38,661 nucleotides of DNA from Planctomycetales bacterium (GTDB lineage: Bacteria; Planctomycetota; Planctomycetia; Pirellulales; Pirellulaceae): positions 1 through 38,661 of the forward strand of contig JAGQPS010000018.1 in the NCBI GenBank assembly GCA_020426595.1, in the 5' to 3' direction. The notes below the pieces were generated by a model that was given only the letters and a program-made list of their open reading frames with translations, was not told the DNA's origin and searched no databases. Every line of letters starts with the position of its first letter. Position 1 is the stretch's first letter. A program made the position numbers and the translations under genes. Shown piece after piece: positions 12,400 through 20,461 of this stretch.

Positions 12400-14145
12400 C
12401 TATCGCCGGTTTCGCTTCCAGGCGATGAAGCCATCGGCATCTCGAGTGTTGAGCACGTCGTTGGCGGTGAGTCCGCCGCGACGCGCTTGGATGACTCCAC
12501 ACCGGAGCACGGTTAGACCCGAGACACTATGCGCGTCGCTGCTAATCGTGACGGGGATGCCTAACTCGGCGCACCGAGCGACTTGTACGTCATCCAAATC
12601 GAGGCGATGGGGATTTGCGTTGAGTTCGAGCGCCTTGCCGTGTTCCACGCACGCTTGCATCACCGCCGGCAGGTCGACTTCATAAGGCTCGCGGCGCAGC
12701 AACAGGCGGCCGGTGGGATGGGCGATCACGTCGACCGAAGGATGTCGAACCGCGTTGAGCATCCGCTCCGTGATCTGCTCCCGCGGCTGATTCTGACCGT
12801 AGTGGATACTGGCGGTCACCCAGTCGGCCTGAGCGAGTACCTCGTCCGACAGGTCCATCGTGCCATCCTCGAGGATATCGCATTCGATGCCTTTCAGGAT
12901 GCGAAAGCCCAGTTCCTGGCTCCAGGCACGATCGAGTTCATCGACCTCGCGCCACTGCGCTAACAACCGTTCCTCATCCAGCCCTCGCGCCATCGCGACT
13001 CGCTGGGAGTGATCCGAGATCACGATGTAACGCAGCCCAAGGTCGTACGCTCCACGCGCCATTTCCTCGATGCTCGCCGTGCCATCGGTCGCGGTGGTGT
13101 GCATGTGCAAGTCGCCTCGCAGATCGCTCAATTCGATCAGCGGCGGGAGCTCGGCGGGGCGCGAATCTTGGAACTCGAGTCGAGCCTCGCGCAGTTCCGG
13201 CGGGAACCAGGGCCAGCCAATGGCCTCGTAGACGTCGGCTTCCGTTCGTCCCGCGATCCAGGTTTCGCTTTCCCCTTCGACTCGGAACACGCCCCACTCG
13301 TTGATTTTCAAGCCGAGTTGCTTGGCATGGGCGCGGACCTTGACGTTGTGGGCCATCGAACCGGTGAAGTACTGCAGCGCCGAGCCAAACGACTCATCCG
13401 GCACGACGCGCAGGTCGATTTGAAAACCGTTCCGCAATCGCACGCTCATCTTGGTTTCGCCACGCGCGATGACTTCACGCACATCGTCGAATTCCGCCAG
13501 ACGATCCATGACGGCGGCTCCATCGGGAGCCACGACGATCAGGTCGAGGTCGCCCACCGTCTCGCGCCCGCGCCGCAGGCTTCCCGCGAATTCCAGTTTC
13601 TCGTGAGCGACCCCGTCGAGATGATCGCGCAGGCGGCAGGCGATCGCCTCGGCATCACTACGCAGCAGTCGCTGTTGGCTCGAACGCGCGATCGAGAGCC
13701 CTTCCAGGATCGTCGTTTCGGTCTTGGCTCCGAATCCCTTGAGCTTGCGTAGCTCCTGGTTCTGGCAGGCTTGTTCGAGCTTGTCGAGCGAGTCGATCTT
13801 CAGCTCCTGAAACAACGTGGCCGCTTTCTTGGGGCCGAGTCCTGGGACCCGCAACAAGTCGAGGACTCCGTCGGGCAACTGTCGACGCAGTTCCTCGAGC
13901 TGCGGAATCGCTCCATCAAGGACGAGCGCCCGCATCTTCTCGCCAACCGCCTCGCCAATTCCCTCGATCGACGTTGGATCGAAGGTCGGGTCAGCCAAAC
14001 GCGACGAGAGAGGTTGTAGCCAACCACGAATGACACGAGCGGCGTTTCGGTAGGCGCGGACTCGGAACGAGTTGGCTCCCTGGAACTCCAGGAGATCGGC
14101 CAATGTTTCGAATTCATCCGCGATGGCGTCGTTGGACCAGCTCAC
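12400..14145 (-). CDS. polX: DNA polymerase X family protein (PolX) with PHP exonuclease domain
   Basis: The roughly 581-residue protein has an N-terminal helix-hairpin-helix region, the family X polymerase core with the catalytic aspartates in VGDLDLIVVAPD and FQIDLRV, and the thumb motif FTGSMAHNVKVRAHA. A C-terminal PHP domain starts at DLHMHTTATDGT. Further metal ligands lie in VISDHSQR, GIECDIL, ASIHYG, VIAHPTGR and SSDAHS. Bacterial PolX fills gaps in base excision repair and the PHP domain adds 3'-5' exonuclease or AP endonuclease activity. The start overlaps the end of the upstream DinB gene: GTG at 14145 forms GTGA with its stop and has GGGAG 8 bases upstream, which suggests translational coupling. 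A TTG at 14148 is an alternative. Confidence 0.92.
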   Translation of the reverse strand: MSWSNDAIADEFETLADLLEFQGANSFRVRAYRNAARVIRGWLQPLSSRLADPTFDPTSIEGIGEAVGEKMRALVLDGAIPQLEELRRQLPDGVLDLLRVPGLGPKKAATLFQELKIDSLDKLEQACQNQELRKLKGFGAKTETTILEGLSIARSSQQRLLRSDAEAIACRLRDHLDGVAHEKLEFAGSLRRGRETVGDLDLIVVAPDGAAVMDRLAEFDDVREVIARGETKMSVRLRNGFQIDLRVVPDESFGSALQYFTGSMAHNVKVRAHAKQLGLKINEWGVFRVEGESETWIAGRTEADVYEAIGWPWFPPELREARLEFQDSRPAELPPLIELSDLRGDLHMHTTATDGTASIEEMARGAYDLGLRYIVISDHSQRVAMARGLDEERLLAQWREVDELDRAWSQELGFRILKGIECDILEDGTMDLSDEVLAQADWVTASIHYGQNQPREQITERMLNAVRHPSVDVIAHPTGRLLLRREPYEVDLPAVMQACVEHGKALELNANPHRLDLDDVQVARCAELGIPVTISSDAHSVSGLTVLRCGVIQARRGGLTANDVLNTRDADGFIAWKRNRR

Positions 14146-14642
14146 CAAGTCATCTCCCGCGTGGGCTCGAGTCCCAACATCGTTCGTTTGAGGTTGAGGT
14201 GCCGACGGTGGCTCTCGATGTGTTCGACGTAAACTCGCACCAATTGCCCAAGTGACATCGGACCGTTCTCGCTATGCGTGCCGGTACGGGCGAAGTCGTC
14301 CGGGGTAAGAGCGGAGAGAATCGCGTGCAGGTCGAGTCGATGAAGGCGGAACAGTTCGGCCAAACGCTCGAGCGATCGAGTCGCCGGGGACAAGCGAGCG
14401 AGGAATGCGTTCTCGTCGTACGCCCAGAACGAAGGTCCCGGCTCCGCGATCACCCGTCGTAAACGCCAGCCGCCCACGAGGTCGGCGTCGACGCAATGAA
14501 CGACCAATTCACGAATGGACCACTTGCCTTCCACCAGACGGGCATCGAGCTGCTCGGCCGGTACGCCCGCGAGTGCTTCCGCGGGGAATGTCGCCTGAGC
14601 CGCGAATCGCTCGAGCCAAATCGGATCCCACTCATTCGTCAT
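14142..14642 (-). CDS. DinB-like four-helix metalloprotein
   Basis: The 166-residue protein matches the DinB/DUF1572-like fold. Residues near the N-terminus (GKWSIRELVVHCVDAD) give the first metal-binding histidine, and YVEHIESHRRH near the C-terminus gives the other two. Members of this superfamily include bacillithiol and mycothiol transferases and damage-inducible proteins of unknown role; the exact reaction cannot be told. It is the first gene of a two-gene unit with polX, overlapping it by a few bases, so the two are probably translated from one mRNA. Confidence 0.8.
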   Translation of the reverse strand: MTNEWDPIWLERFAAQATFPAEALAGVPAEQLDARLVEGKWSIRELVVHCVDADLVGGWRLRRVIAEPGPSFWAYDENAFLARLSPATRSLERLAELFRLHRLDLHAILSALTPDDFARTGTHSENGPMSLGQLVRVYVEHIESHRRHLNLKRTMLGLEPTREMTW

Positions 14643-14895: not shown

Positions 14896-16398
14896 ATGCC
14901 CAATCCGCTGCGTTCGTTGCCGACCGTCAATGAGCTGCTTGCCGCACCTCAGCTCAAGCTGTGGGTCGAGCGAGCGAGCCACACGACCGTCGTGGCGATC
15001 GCGCGACGCGTGTTGGATGAAGTGCGTTCGCAATGGCGCTCGGCGTCCGCGGAGGTTGAGTTTCCCAGTCCGACCGAGTTGATCGATCGAATCGCGACTT
15101 GGGTGGGGCGCGAGGAGCGTGAACGCCTGATCCCGGTGATCAATGCCACGGGATTGCTGCTGAGCGACTCGTTGGGACGAGCTCCGTTGGCCGAGGACGC
15201 GTTGGCCGCCGCCGCTCGTATTGGCCAGCGCTACTGCAGCTTGGAGATCGATCTCGACAGTGGTGAGTCGATGGATCGACAAGACTCCGTCGAACGATTG
15301 CTCCGCGACCTCACGCAGGCCGCGGGAGCGCGGGTCGTCAACAACCAGTCCGCGGCGATGCACCTGGCCGTCGCTTCGCTGGCCAGGGACGGCGAGGTGT
15401 TGATCTCGCGGGGCGATCTCTATGACTTTGGAGAGGACTATCGACTCGCCACCACCCTGCAAGAAGCGGGCTGCCGCCTTCGCGAAGTGGGATCGGTGAA
15501 TCACACCTCGCTCGACGACTTCCGCCTCGCCCTGACTCCCGAGACACGGCTTATCTTGCGGGTCGATCGAGGGGCGGGGCCAGCCGGTGGAGTGTCCATG
15601 ACGGAACTCGTCAAGCTGGGGCGAGCTCACGACATTCCGGTGATGGCGAGTGTCGCCCTCGCTTCGTTGATCGAGCCGGCGGTATTGGGCATCGACGCCA
15701 AGGGGACGCTGTCCGATTGGATCGCCACGGGCGCTGACCTGATCCTGGCTTCGGCCGATAAGTTGATCGGTGGACCTTCGGCCGGGTTGTTGTTGGGCAA
15801 GCCGACCGTACTCGAGAAAATCGCTCGACATCCGCTGCATCGCGCGGTTCGCGTCGACCGACTTACCTTGGCCTCGTTGGCCGCCACATTGCGACTCTAT
15901 CGCGACGCCTCGTTGGCCATGCATCGCCTCCCGCTGCTCGCGCTGCTCGATACTCCGTTATCCAATCTCAAGTTGCGGGCCGAGCATCTGGCTTCCCGGT
16001 TGCGCGCGACGGGTGTTTTCGCGGAGGTCGAAACGTCGCAAGGTCAGGCTCACCTCGGCATCTGGAGCCCGGACGATGTGGCTGTCGATTCGTGGCAAGT
16101 GTTGCTCAAGCCGACGCAGGAGACCGCCGCGCAAATGCGGAAGCGACTACGCAAATCGACTCCAGTCGTGTTGAGTCGCGTCGTCGAGGACCGAGTCGTG
16201 ATCGACCTGCGATCGTGTGCTCCTGGTGAGGACGGGGCGATCGCGGAGTTGGTCGAGAATTGGGCGCGGGGCTCGGACGAGGAGGCTCTCACGCCGCCGC
16301 CCGTAGCCATCACGAGTCCCACGCTCGACCCCGTGTTGCGACGTCGCCAGGAGGATGCGGCCGATGCCGCGCCAGCGCCTCCGCAAGGGAACCACTGA
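14896..16398 (+). CDS. SelA-like PLP protein, divergent from selenocysteine synthase
   Basis: The 500-residue protein aligns end to end with L-seryl-tRNA(Sec) selenium transferase. It keeps the PLP lysine motif ASADKLIGGPSAG (K289), the VINATG start of the core, the VVNN motif, ISRG, HPLHRAVRVDRLTLASLAATLRLY and the C-terminal SRVVEDRVVIDLRS. Compared with E. coli SelA as I remember it, several motifs are changed: HTNLGR is SDSLGR (90-95), GRGHRD is lost near 123-129, TTNRT is SVNHT, HTSN is DRGA, and TDLGSGS is ASVALAS (251-257), which removes an aspartate likely to contact PLP. The tail after about residue 460 is proline/alanine-rich. It may be an inactive or repurposed paralogue. No selB or selD is in the window. 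Confidence 0.75.
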   Translation: MPNPLRSLPTVNELLAAPQLKLWVERASHTTVVAIARRVLDEVRSQWRSASAEVEFPSPTELIDRIATWVGREERERLIPVINATGLLLSDSLGRAPLAEDALAAAARIGQRYCSLEIDLDSGESMDRQDSVERLLRDLTQAAGARVVNNQSAAMHLAVASLARDGEVLISRGDLYDFGEDYRLATTLQEAGCRLREVGSVNHTSLDDFRLALTPETRLILRVDRGAGPAGGVSMTELVKLGRAHDIPVMASVALASLIEPAVLGIDAKGTLSDWIATGADLILASADKLIGGPSAGLLLGKPTVLEKIARHPLHRAVRVDRLTLASLAATLRLYRDASLAMHRLPLLALLDTPLSNLKLRAEHLASRLRATGVFAEVETSQGQAHLGIWSPDDVAVDSWQVLLKPTQETAAQMRKRLRKSTPVVLSRVVEDRVVIDLRSCAPGEDGAIAELVENWARGSDEEALTPPPVAITSPTLDPVLRRRQEDAADAAPAPPQGNH

Positions 16399-16536
16399 AC
16401 GCGGGGGCTGCATGGGACACCACTCCGCCCGAGCGGCCCACGCATGATCCCATGGCTCGCTCGAGGAAACGCGAAGGCCAGTATCAACGGAATGCCGCAC
16501 CTTGCTCCACTTGCCGTACCAAGCTTCCCTAGCTGG

Positions 16537-17460
16537 ATGTTCACCATGACGCACGCACCCACTTGTCGGCGATGGAAACCCTTGAGTTCATGGGCGTGGT
16601 GTTTTGTCGCTGTCTTGCTGAGCTGTTCGGCGGCCGTGGCACAGGATTCGGTCATCCCAAGCCGCTGCCATATTTGGGGACCGTTCGAAGTTGGCGCGTG
16701 GTCGCGCGTTCAAGTCGACGTGGAAGTGTACGAACGGGGACAGCGACTCCATCACGTCGAGCGCACGGTGACTCGTGTACTCAAACGTCGGGACGAACAG
16801 GGATACCAGCTCGACATCGACACCTGGGAACGATTGGGAGTCGCTTTAGGGCCGCGAGAACGCCGCACCACGGAAACGGGAGACTATCCCTGGTTCGTCT
16901 CGGCCGACCGGCTTAAGGACCTGGGTGAGGAGTCTCGGAGCGAGTTGGAATGGCAGGGGGAAACGATTTCGTGCCAAGTCTTTGAGTACGAGACGGTGCA
17001 ATCGGGACGCGTGATTAGCCATCGTGACCTGTTTCACGCCGATCGATTCCCCTTCTTCCTCGGCCGTCTCGTGGTGCGCACCCCGGAAGGTGAGCCCGAA
17101 CGCATCGAGGCTCGTGAATACAGCCGAGTGATCGAATCGGAGGTGCCGATCTTCCTGGGGGACCGCATCGTCTCGGGAGTATTGACCAAGACGACGTTGG
17201 ACTCGCCGGAGCGGAGCGTCGTGATTCTCGAGGAGCTCGCCCCCGAGGTTCCGGGCGGGCTAGTTTCCAAACGAGTGGTCGAGCGCGACCGCGATGGGGC
17301 GATTGTCCGCAGGGAAGTCGTCTCGCTCGTCGATTTCGGGGATGCCAGCGATTGGGAGCAAAACGACGGCGAGTCGGGGCAGCTCGAAACGAGCCGCTTG
17401 CGAGGCCGGCTCTTCCGCCGCTGGAACCGTGCGGACGGGAGCGATGACTCGCGGCAGTAA
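16537..17460 (+). CDS. Secreted protein of unknown function
   Basis: The 307-residue product starts at the ATG at 16537 (16546 is an alternative). It has a basic N-terminus and a hydrophobic signal sequence ending CSAAVAQ, so cleavage after AVA is likely and the protein is exported. The mature part is mostly beta-strand in character, rich in charged residues, with segments such as WGPFEVGAWSRVQV and ILEELAPEVPGGLVSKRV. I do not recognise a domain. It looks like the planctomycete proteins of unknown function that carry a periplasmic lipoprotein-carrier-like beta fold, but that is only an impression. It lies between the SelA-like gene and guaB in the same direction. Confidence 0.7.
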   Translation: MFTMTHAPTCRRWKPLSSWAWCFVAVLLSCSAAVAQDSVIPSRCHIWGPFEVGAWSRVQVDVEVYERGQRLHHVERTVTRVLKRRDEQGYQLDIDTWERLGVALGPRERRTTETGDYPWFVSADRLKDLGEESRSELEWQGETISCQVFEYETVQSGRVISHRDLFHADRFPFFLGRLVVRTPEGEPERIEAREYSRVIESEVPIFLGDRIVSGVLTKTTLDSPERSVVILEELAPEVPGGLVSKRVVERDRDGAIVRREVVSLVDFGDASDWEQNDGESGQLETSRLRGRLFRRWNRADGSDDSRQ

Positions 17461-17605: not shown

Positions 17606-17653
17606 GCTCGGTTTACCCGGAGCGGATGTTTGGCGGTCTCGAGACCCTCTCCA

Positions 17654-17688
17654 GGGAGCCCTCTTGGCTCCCCGTGCGGTCGTTTTTT
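17654..17688 (+). terminator. Hairpin plus T-run in the guaB leader
   Basis: GGGAGCC (17654-17660) and GGCTCCC (17666-17672) form a perfect 7-bp stem with loop CTCTT. A run of six T begins 11 bases later at 17683. The distance is long for a simple terminator. It may end transcripts of the upstream secreted protein or act as an attenuator inside the guaB leader. Confidence 0.4.
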
Positions 17689-17748
17689 CGAACGAGAACG
17701 CTTTCAGAAGCTCCTACGTCGCAGTCGCCAAGCCGAGGGAGAGCAACC

Positions 17749-19221
17749 ATGGAAAAGATCGTTCAAACGGCCATCACGTTTGATGATGTGTTGCTGATTC
17801 CTCGCTACAGCGAAGTGATGCCTTCGGAGGTCGAAGTCGCCACCAATCTGACTCGCAATATCCGGCTCAACACGCCGCTTTTGTCGAGTCCGATGGACAC
17901 GGTGACCGAGAGTGCGATGGCGATCGCGCTCGCGAAGGTGGGTGGCGTCGGCATCATCCACAAGAACATGTCGATCGAGGCCCAGACCGAGGAAGTCTAC
18001 AAGGTCAAGCGTAGCGCCAACGGCATCATCGACGACCCCGTCACGTTGCAGCCCGAGATCCCAGTCGTCGAAGCGCGGCGCCTGATGGACCAGCACAATG
18101 TCTCCGGTGTTCCCATTGTGGATAAGGGAGGAAAACTGGTCGGTATTTTGACTCGGCGCGATCTGCGGTTTCTAGAGGAGGGCGACACCCTCATTGCGGA
18201 CGTGATGACCAAGGACAATTTGGTCACGGCGACGGGAGAGGTAACGCTTGAGCAAGCTGAAAAGATTTTAACGGACAAAAAGGTGGAGAAACTTCTCCTA
18301 GTTGACGACTCATACAGGTTGACTGGACTGATCACGATCAAAGACATCGACATGATGAAGAGCTTTCCGCAGGCCTGTAAAGACAGGCAAGGGAGGCTGA
18401 GAGTTGGAGCCGCGATTGGTGTCTTGGATTTTGATCGCGCCGAGAGTCTGATCGGCAAGGATGTCGACATCCTTGTGGTCGACAGTGCTCACGGCCATTC
18501 GGGCAATGTGATCGAGACCGTCCGCGAGATCAAACGCCGTTGGAGGATCGATGTTGTCGCCGGCAATGTGGCGACGACGGAAGGTGCCAAGGCTTTGGTG
18601 GACGCGGGAGCCGACGCTGTGAAGGTCGGGATTGGACCGGGATCGATCTGTACGACTCGAGTGGTGAGTGGAGTCGGCGTGCCTCAGGTGACGGCCATCA
18701 CGAATGCGGCGGCCGTCTGTGAGCCCGCGGGAGTCCCAGTCATCGCGGACGGAGGAATTCGGTTTTCGGGAGATATCACCAAGGCGCTCGCGGCTGGAGC
18801 TTCTTGCGTGATGATTGGCGGCCTCTTCGCGGGGCTCGCTGAAAGCCCGGGACAGATCATCCTCTACCAAGGACGGACTTTTAAAGCGTATCGAGGGATG
18901 GGCTCGCTCGGAGCCATGGCCAAGGGGTCGAGCGAGAGGTACCGACAAGGATCGTCATCGGGCGGCAAGTTCGTGCCGGAGGGCGTGGAAGGGCGAGTCC
19001 CTTTCAAGGGCGTCCTGGCCGATTTCGTCTACCAACTGGTGGGCGGGCTGCGAGCCGGCATGGGGTACTGTGGAACTCGAACGATTGAGGAACTGCGAAG
19101 GGATGCGCAATTCATACAGGTCTCTGCTGCGAGCGTTCGTGAGAGTCACCCACACGACATCGCCATCACTCAAGAATCTCCCAACTACAGCCCCGAGACG
19201 ATGTCTGGCGGCTCGAGTTGA
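17749..19221 (+). CDS. guaB: IMP dehydrogenase
   Basis: The 490-residue protein oxidises IMP to XMP with NAD+, the committed step of GMP synthesis. It has the TIM-barrel start [12 protein letters not shown], two CBS domains (about residues 95-215), the NAD-side motif DSAHGHS, the catalytic cysteine loop [11 protein letters not shown], the phosphate-binding [10 protein letters not shown] and the flap region around [10 protein letters not shown]. The length matches the bacterial norm. The ATG at 17749 has GAGGGAGAG upstream. A stretch at 18241-18360, inside the second CBS domain, has about 43% GC although the surrounding gene is near 60% or higher. The frame ends 7 bases before the next gene's likely start. 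Confidence 0.96.
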
Positions 19222-19228
19222 CGGTTTG

Positions 19229-20461
19229 GTGCGCCGCGGCGCGGTGCTCGGTGCCGTCCTCGCCACCGCTTGTGGTGTCATGCCGTGGGGTGGATCGTTG
19301 GTTGGGACTCGCGCCTTGGGGCAAGATTCGGACGTGCCGCGATTGATCGCGCGCCCCGTTGCCGCTCGGCCCCTACCGGCTGTTGAAACTCCGGCCGCCG
19401 CTGAAACTTCGGCGGTCACACCCATCCGATCCACGACCAGCCAGGACGGCTGGGCCTCGTCGGGCAACGCGAGCCAGACGCCCGTCATGCGGGATGAAGC
19501 GGTTCGCCGAACGGCGGTGCAAGAGGGCGAGTTGCAGTGGCAGCGTCGCTCCGGTGGAGCCACCAGCGCGCCGGTTCAGTTAGGAGCGCCCCGAAACGCG
19601 GCTCCTCGTATCGCGGCGGAGCAGCCGATCAACGATCCCTTTGGTGATCGTTCGGCGGTGCGACAGCCTCGTGGCGGAGCCGCCTACGCGTCGACTCGCT
19701 ACCAAGACGAAGCGGGCGTCGGTGATGCCGCCTCCGCTCCGCCACTTGGATTGCCGGCTCAGATCGGCGAGCGAGCCACTCCGTTCGACTGCGAGGCTTT
19801 CTACGCCAAGCTCGCGAACAATCCGCTTTCGAGCATCGAGCTCAACCTCTCCCCTTCCGTCGATCCCGAGGCTCGGACCGACGAAGAAATTCGGGCCGCC
19901 TTGCTGCGGATCGCTTCCGCGCAAACCCCGGTCGACTGGGTCGACCGCACCGGCCGTGTCGTGGCTCATGGTCGTTTGACCGATTGGCATAACGGCATGG
20001 TCTTCGTCATGGACGAAGCGGGCGAGGAAGTGACGGTCTCGTACTACGATCTGAGTGCCGCCAGCCGCCGCGTGGTCACCGCGGCTTGGGGAGTGCCGGC
20101 CGAGTGCTCGTTACTCGAACAAGGTTCGGTCGATCGCATGTGGGCCTACCAGACCTACACCTGGACCGCCTCGCAGTTGTGTCACAAGCCGTTGTTCTTC
20201 GAGGACGTGCAGCTCGAGCGATATGGTCAGACCTCGCGTCCGATCGTGCAGCCGTTCCGCAGCGGAGCCCACTTCTTCCTGAACATCGCGGCGATGCCGT
20301 ACAACGCGGGTGTCTATCCGCCGAACGAGTGCCGCTATTCGCTGGGCTACTATCGGCCGGGCGACTGCGCTCCGTATCTCAGCAAGTCTCTACCGCTGAG
20401 TGCCCGCGGAGCGATGTTCCAGGCGGGAGCGGTGGTCGGAACCGCGGTCGCGCTCCCCTAA
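19229..20461 (+). CDS. Secreted planctomycete protein of unknown function
   Basis: Starting at the GTG at 19229 (410 residues; TTG at 19226 is an alternative), the product has a signal-like segment (GAVLGAVLATACGV) ending around RALGQDS. A region of about 150 residues follows that is rich in A, P, T and R and probably disordered. The C-terminal half looks folded: PFDCEAFYAKLANNPLSSIELNLS, then TPVDWVDRTGRVVAHGRL, and a tail with CHKPLFFEDVQLERYG and FFLNIAAMPYNAGVYPPNECRYSLGYYRPGDC cut across two lines of short aromatic and cysteine motifs. I recall similar sequences only in planctomycetes, with no assigned role. It may be cotranscribed with guaB, 7 bases upstream, and a strong hairpin follows 84 bases after its stop. 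Confidence 0.72.
   Translation: MRRGAVLGAVLATACGVMPWGGSLVGTRALGQDSDVPRLIARPVAARPLPAVETPAAAETSAVTPIRSTTSQDGWASSGNASQTPVMRDEAVRRTAVQEGELQWQRRSGGATSAPVQLGAPRNAAPRIAAEQPINDPFGDRSAVRQPRGGAAYASTRYQDEAGVGDAASAPPLGLPAQIGERATPFDCEAFYAKLANNPLSSIELNLSPSVDPEARTDEEIRAALLRIASAQTPVDWVDRTGRVVAHGRLTDWHNGMVFVMDEAGEEVTVSYYDLSAASRRVVTAAWGVPAECSLLEQGSVDRMWAYQTYTWTASQLCHKPLFFEDVQLERYGQTSRPIVQPFRSGAHFFLNIAAMPYNAGVYPPNECRYSLGYYRPGDCAPYLSKSLPLSARGAMFQAGAVVGTAVALP

Follow-up and report, generated by a model that had tools for sequence, protein, structure and literature searches.

Persistence of SelA without selenocysteine (Sec) decoding is already known (PMC1794560; PMC4607533). In Helicobacter pylori and H. acinonychis, SelA has outlived the Sec trait, with deletion of the loop 218-224 and substitution of T191/T192 and S217, the lysine and arginines 86, 312 and 315 being kept, and Cravedi et al. 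(2015) proposed that H. pylori SelA has been repurposed, binding a small phosphorylated amino compound (PMC4607533). An archaeal SelA homologue has also been reported to lack SelA activity (PMC1794560). The planctomycete SelA studied here is encoded in the window, the whole 38,661-nucleotide stretch of DNA that was analysed, and has in common with H. pylori SelA the lost Sec trait, the lost dimer-dimer loop, the substituted T191/T192 and S217, and the retained lysine and arginines. However, H. pylori SelA lacks the N-terminal tRNA-binding domain, which the window SelA keeps (PF12390, aa 5-44), and its catalytic residues are reported to be conserved (PMC4607533), whereas the window SelA has lost D247 and the DxGSG loop. 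The SelA-like PLP enzymes DgaE (7lc0) and Cap15 (8t7j) share the fold of the window SelA, have no tRNA substrate and are a precedent for turning this scaffold to small substrates, some of them phosphorylated, but the window SelA is much less like them than like true SelA and falls far below the cut-offs for DgaE and the SelA-related ammonia lyase (TIGR01437, 54.7 vs 385.3 bits; NF047797, 41.3 vs 600). We take the archaeal homologue without SelA activity to be MJ0158 (2aeu; TIGR03576), which differs from the window SelA in oligomer and lineage and whose family model gives the window SelA 28.9 bits against a cut-off of 304.45.

Identity and motifs of the window SelA

The window SelA is encoded by an ORF with an ATG start and a TGA stop, intact through 500 codons and with normal codon-position GC:

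14896..16398, + strand: altered SelA (500 aa), the genome's only SelA (TIGR00474 353.8 bits, PF03841 282.2, PF12390 36.3; AlphaFold2 pLDDT 90.9; 3w1i Z 48.0)
14908..15027, + strand: SelA N-terminal domain, kept (aa 5-44; PF12390 E 6.1e-9; identity at the level of canonical SelA)

Homology to SelA is full-length, TIGR00474, the NCBI selA equivalog model with a cut-off of 267.9 bits, matching aa 5-454. AlphaFold2 with 68 homologues produced a confident model (pTM 0.85) with helices at aa 4-49 in the N-terminal domain, the part of A. aeolicus SelA that binds tRNA-Sec. The solved structures closest to this model are all SelA, led by A. aeolicus 3w1i (rmsd 1.9 Å, 384 residues aligned), and the best non-SelA structures are DgaE (Z 30.9) and Cap15 (Z 30.6). 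Profile scores, predicted fold and the match to 3w1i together identify the protein as SelA by descent and fold, bearing out the preliminary description, which held that the overall SelA architecture and the PLP lysine K289 were retained. It had also foreseen misannotation as a selenocysteine synthase, and since the score exceeds the equivalog cut-off, the NCBI model would indeed give the protein that name.

We aligned the window SelA to A. aeolicus SelA (3w1h; Aa numbering below), E. coli SelA (8uzw) and 72 canonical planctomycete SelAs, and read the roles of active-site and interface residues from Cravedi et al. (2015), according to whom the region 218-224 is crucial for the decamer (PMC4607533). 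The motifs compare as follows:

15163..15180, + strand: SDSLGR replacing HT[NG]LGR, with R95 (= Aa R86) kept (aa 90-95, alignment)
15490..15501, + strand: GSVN replacing GTTN (aa 199-202), where Aa T191 and T192, of the dimer-dimer interface, become S200 and V201 (role from PMC4607533)
15565..15579, + strand: DRGAG replacing HxSNYxxxG (aa 224-228, alignment), with S217 lost (now G226) and Aa 218-221 deleted (4 residues)
15646..15666, + strand: ASVALAS replacing DDIGSGA (aa 251-257, alignment), the PLP-ring aspartate Aa D247 becoming S252
15751..15762, + strand: SADK (aa 286-289, alignment), with the PLP lysine K289 (Aa K285), D288 (D284) and S286 (S282) kept
15841..15852, + strand: RAVR (aa 316-319, alignment), with Aa R312 as R316 and Aa R315 as R319, selenophosphate site kept

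Relative to canonical SelA (A. aeolicus 3w1h/3w1i, E. coli 8uzw), the window SelA therefore retains the architecture, fold and N-terminal domain, the PLP lysine with D284 and S282 (SGDKLLGGPQ of SelA reads SADKLIGGPS), and every selenophosphate-site residue (R86, R312 and R315, together with R119, as R95, R316, R319 and R128), that is, 7/7 lysine and phosphate-site residues, but lacks the PLP-ring aspartate, the DxGSG loop, the HT of HTNLGR, S217, T191/T192 and the 218-221 loop, and its genome lacks SelB, SelD and tRNA-Sec. At the interface needed for the active decamer, T191, T192 and the loop 218-224 are not preserved, and the equivalents of D199 and R174 are kept.

Replacement of DDIGSG by ASVALA leaves S252 in the place of the PLP-ring aspartate, and S250 and G251 of the DxGSG motif are also absent, so that the loss of the acidic residue that should hold the PLP ring, noted in the preliminary description at aa 251-257, is confirmed. 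The role of the DxGSG aspartate is established knowledge for fold-type I PLP enzymes. D247, S217 and T192 are invariant in 72/72 canonical planctomycete SelAs, and all three are replaced in the window SelA. The remaining motif replacements listed in the preliminary description also hold (HTNLGR to SDSLGR, TTN to SVN, HTSNY.. to DRG with a four-residue deletion, DDIGSG/TDLGSG to ASVALA), except that GRGHRD, counted there among the lost motifs, is E. coli's own variant and not a motif of the family: canonical planctomycete SelAs read SGxRSQR, and in this region the window SelA keeps the invariant arginine (Aa R119, R128) and has lost R116. Full-length alignments were collinear, and no shifted versions of the missing motifs were found in them. 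Over the 90 columns that are at least 95% conserved in the 72 canonical proteins, the window SelA keeps 62 residues and the SelA of a related genome, G106, keeps 89; for the window SelA alone, loss at the chosen catalytic columns was not significantly greater than at other conserved columns (p 0.08). The window SelA is long-branched in SelA trees.

The selA locus and the selenocysteine pathway

The neighbours of selA serve as landmarks of an orthologous locus:

12400..14148, - strand: polX, upstream landmark (NF006375 521 bits; collinear in G106 and G308)
14142..14642, - strand: DinB-like gene between polX and selA (PF12867), not found at that place in G106 or G308
16444..17460, + strand: conserved, probably secreted protein without a Pfam family, directly 3' of selA in canonical and altered loci (locus comparison)
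17626..19221, + strand: guaB, IMP dehydrogenase, landmark (TIGR01302 617.7 bits)
18815..20461, + strand: conserved gene that follows guaB, without a known family, landmark (locus comparison)

The product of 16444-17460 belongs to a family of about 300 aa with a hydrophobic N-terminal segment, whose genes separate selA from guaB in many planctomycetes, and its start lies perhaps near 16547. The ORF listed as 18815-20461 overlaps guaB by 400 bases, and its true start is therefore probably after 19221.

From 6.6 kb to fam16, the gene order of the window is that of G106 (b6622 - o9558 - g11374 - polX - selA - fam6 - guaB - fam16), where a canonical selA occupies the position of the window gene in a genome with SelB, SelD and tRNA-SeC. 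In the congener G308, polX adjoins fam6 at a distance of about 0.4 kb with neither selA nor dinB between them, the single run of N (NN) near the locus falls inside fam6, past its signal peptide, and no SelA was found elsewhere in the 80%-complete assembly. The window, G308 and G106 form one clade in GuaB, fam6 and concatenated trees (99/97, 100/100 and 100/100), and a SelA tree constrained to place the window and G106 together is not rejected and has a slightly higher likelihood than the unconstrained one (p-AU 0.57). Across the genomes compared, canonical and altered SelAs share one locus, between polX and fam6/guaB. The term paralogue, used in the preliminary description, has to be given up: as the only SelA of its genome, at an orthologous locus, the window SelA is a positional orthologue of canonical SelA, and is the lineage's own selA. 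Three related genomes thus present one locus in three states, with SelA canonical and presumably working in G106, altered in the window and deleted in G308, a case of an enzyme outliving its pathway among close relatives. The absence of selA from G308 indicates that the gene is dispensable and its role non-essential in the window's genus.

The genome of the window is a fragmented assembly (5.96 Mb, 867 contigs, 91% complete). A PF03841 search of it returned the window SelA as the sole SelA; a second match, confined to positions 173-234 at 24.2 bits, was not counted as another SelA. Neither SelB nor SelD exceeded its cut-off in this 91%-complete assembly, and tRNA-Sec was not found in it by Rfam and ARAGORN. 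One Rfam tRNA-Sec match there (50.7 bits, over the gathering score) was rejected, ARAGORN calling it tRNA-Ser(tga) and true tRNA-SeC of relatives scoring 67-80 bits. The same search in five SelB-positive relatives gave 67-80 bits and an ARAGORN call of tRNA-SeC(tca), and in SelB-negative relatives at most 51 bits, with tRNA-Ser or tRNA-Leu. SelB, SelD and tRNA-Sec are missing from the congener G308 as well. With all three components absent and five SelB-positive relatives as positive controls, the window SelA almost certainly no longer makes Sec-tRNA, as the preliminary description had supposed.

Altered SelAs across the family

We surveyed 159 genomes of the window's family. A SelA-family match (E <= 1e-3, the weakest matches being taken as scored, without a one-by-one check) was present in 152/159, and SelB and SelD each exceeded their cut-offs in 77. 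Among genomes with fetched loci, canonical SelA was accompanied by SelB in 60/63, the three others being 72-84% complete with SelD present, and when the only fetched SelA was altered, SelB was absent from 58 of 59 genomes and present in one. The Fisher value for this association (1e-29) is only descriptive, because the genomes are related by descent and the rows are not independent. Outside the family, G110, G239 and G260 also have an altered SelA and no SelB. The SelA of G110 (L155) is mildly altered (HTDLGH, EVDDSYR, HDIGLG) and keeps 82/90 conserved positions; its genome has neither SelB nor SelD, and this copy is apparently at a still earlier stage of change. A SelB-like match beside the altered SelA in L077 and L081 was set aside, being CysN/CysC in L081, the one checked. 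The majority of SelAs in planctomycetes are of the canonical kind and are found together with SelB, and the altered ones arose within them, which does not fit the suggestion of a separate, aberrant planctomycete clade.

The PLP lysine is absent from 62 of the 65 other altered homologues, where for example SGDKLLGGPQ becomes PGDALLGGPE with GGP retained, and the window SelA, unlike these lysine-less proteins, retains K289. The altered copies are nevertheless SelA: L108, a very divergent one, is modelled with pLDDT 89.0, and its top structure is SelA (Z 33.9, vs 23.8 for the family ranked second). Among altered copies from genomes other than the window's, 13 unsaturated pairs compared by NG86, some with dS above 1, gave dN/dS of 0.04-0.22. 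Identities in the core, N-terminal and C-terminal domains are 0.61/0.39/0.40 in canonical SelA and 0.34/0.36/0.36 and 0.27/0.34/0.36 in altered SelAs, and the excess conservation of the core is gone even in pairs matched on end-domain identity, which is what a protein retained after loss of catalysis would show. The altered SelAs of relatives probably have a new function and carry the wrong name in databases. Two lysine-less proteins (L142:6001-7419, 374.5 bits; L153:5986-7395, 363.7 bits) pass the 267.9-bit cut-off of TIGR00474, so that a selA annotation alone is no evidence of selenocysteine use; the name is an annotation trap when set on proteins without the catalytic lysine. A search of open-access literature turned up no description of SelAs maintained by selection without the lysine, nor of this planctomycete pattern; a negative from such a collection is weak evidence.

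Proposed fate of an orphaned selA

The window SelA is likely to be an orphaned enzyme, left behind in its lineage when selB, selD and tRNA-Sec were lost, no longer a Sec synthase and held by selection for another role. The protein still has the fold of SelA, with its N-terminal domain, PLP lysine and phosphate-site arginines in place. Gone are the aspartate of the PLP ring, the serine of the PLP 3'-OH and the surfaces through which dimers come together as the decamer that processes tRNA. Such a protein would be expected to be a dimer and to handle neither tRNA-Sec nor selenophosphate. By analogy with H. pylori SelA, selection may retain it, most likely as a binder of a small phosphorylated amino compound on which it may still carry out some PLP chemistry. 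Because K289 and all phosphate-site residues survive, a PLP- or phosphate-ligand-binding protein at an early point of repurposing is the most likely description. The new PLP-dependent or structural role put forward in the preliminary description is putative, maintenance of the protein under selection being what points to it.

The main rival to an orphaned but maintained SelA is a gene without present function, drifting to deletion after the loss of the pathway and still open by chance, and we consider this improbable, though it deserves weight. Deletion of selA in the congener G308 is what such drift would produce, and the change of 28/90 conserved positions and the long branch fit it. However, guaB differs between the window and G308 by a dS of 0.96, corresponding to about 0.48 synonymous changes per site in the window's lineage since the split. 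Over this divergence the gene has acquired neither a stop nor a frameshift in its 500 codons, and its codon-position GC is normal and its modelled fold confident. About 51 stops would be expected in the ORF per neutral change per site, hence about 24 since the split from G308, an expectation valid only if Sec loss predates that split, and the observation of none argues against long neutrality. The 62/90 conserved positions still in place, with the lysine and phosphate-site residues among them, and purifying selection on the altered copies of sister lineages also speak against a relic.

A role of a different kind would be that of a PLP-free pseudoenzyme, a candidate scaffold that would bind RNA or protein by way of its conserved end domains at the N and C termini, a role that its lysine-less relatives may share. 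The vanished core excess, the absence of the lysine from nearly all other altered homologues and the occurrence of altered SelAs beside a complete Sec system in seven genomes are in favour of such a scaffold, but the window SelA still has its lysine and phosphate-site residues, and the pattern of conservation shows that catalysis was lost rather than that a specific new binding function was gained, so for the window protein we find this unlikely as well.

That the window SelA is an ancient, always distinct paralogue, which survived when the true SelA was lost, is very hard to sustain. SelA trees do group the altered copies of several families in one clade (88/88, and 97/90 in another tree). 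However, canonical and altered copies sit at the same polX - fam6/guaB locus, neighbour genes pair the window with a genome that has canonical SelA, and neighbour-gene trees need 4-5 changes between the canonical and altered states. Given the shared locus, these 4-5 changes and the p-AU of 0.57, we read the altered clade as at least partly long-branch attraction, from which such grouping is expected, and did not adopt a single ancient altered-SelA clade; the neighbour-gene trees imply instead that altered copies arose several times within canonical planctomycete SelAs. Least credible of all is a divergent yet working Sec synthase whose SelB, SelD and tRNA-Sec escaped detection or fell into gaps of the assembly. 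In its favour are the retained N-terminal domain, PLP lysine and selenophosphate arginines, and an assembly that reaches 91% completeness. Against it, the window's genome and G308 each lack all three of these separate components, D247, S217 and T192, which do not vary among the 72 canonical proteins, have been exchanged, and S250 with G251 has gone too.

The orphaned SelA of the window may belong to a larger process. Many related lineages would have gone further, losing the lysine too, so that a PLP-free, selectively maintained protein derived from SelA remains, and the wider family offers dozens of further outcomes, mostly lysine-less yet under purifying selection, in which the fate of a Sec synthase that no longer makes selenocysteine becomes testable. 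We tentatively suggest, as a possibility short of an even case, that after loss of Sec decoding SelA was converted repeatedly across this planctomycete family into a maintained PLP-free protein, the window representing an early stage, and that the converted SelA is kept beside, and unused by, a complete Sec cassette with another type of SelA, apparently re-acquired.

Seven genomes carry a canonical and an altered SelA together, the altered copy occurring alongside a full set of Sec genes. In all of the seven but G344, the canonical copy is of the HTN type, has selB and often selD adjacent, and groups with the SelA of another family (98/91), a placement which suggests that these cassettes were re-acquired horizontally. 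Planctomycete Sec genes of mixed origins have been reported earlier (PMC4807772). In L090, L100, L102, L109 and L111, selB, the HTN-type selA and selD lie side by side, the altered SelA being elsewhere in the genome. Among SelB-positive relatives, many SelD genes carry a single in-frame TGA, and SelD itself therefore looks like a selenoprotein there.
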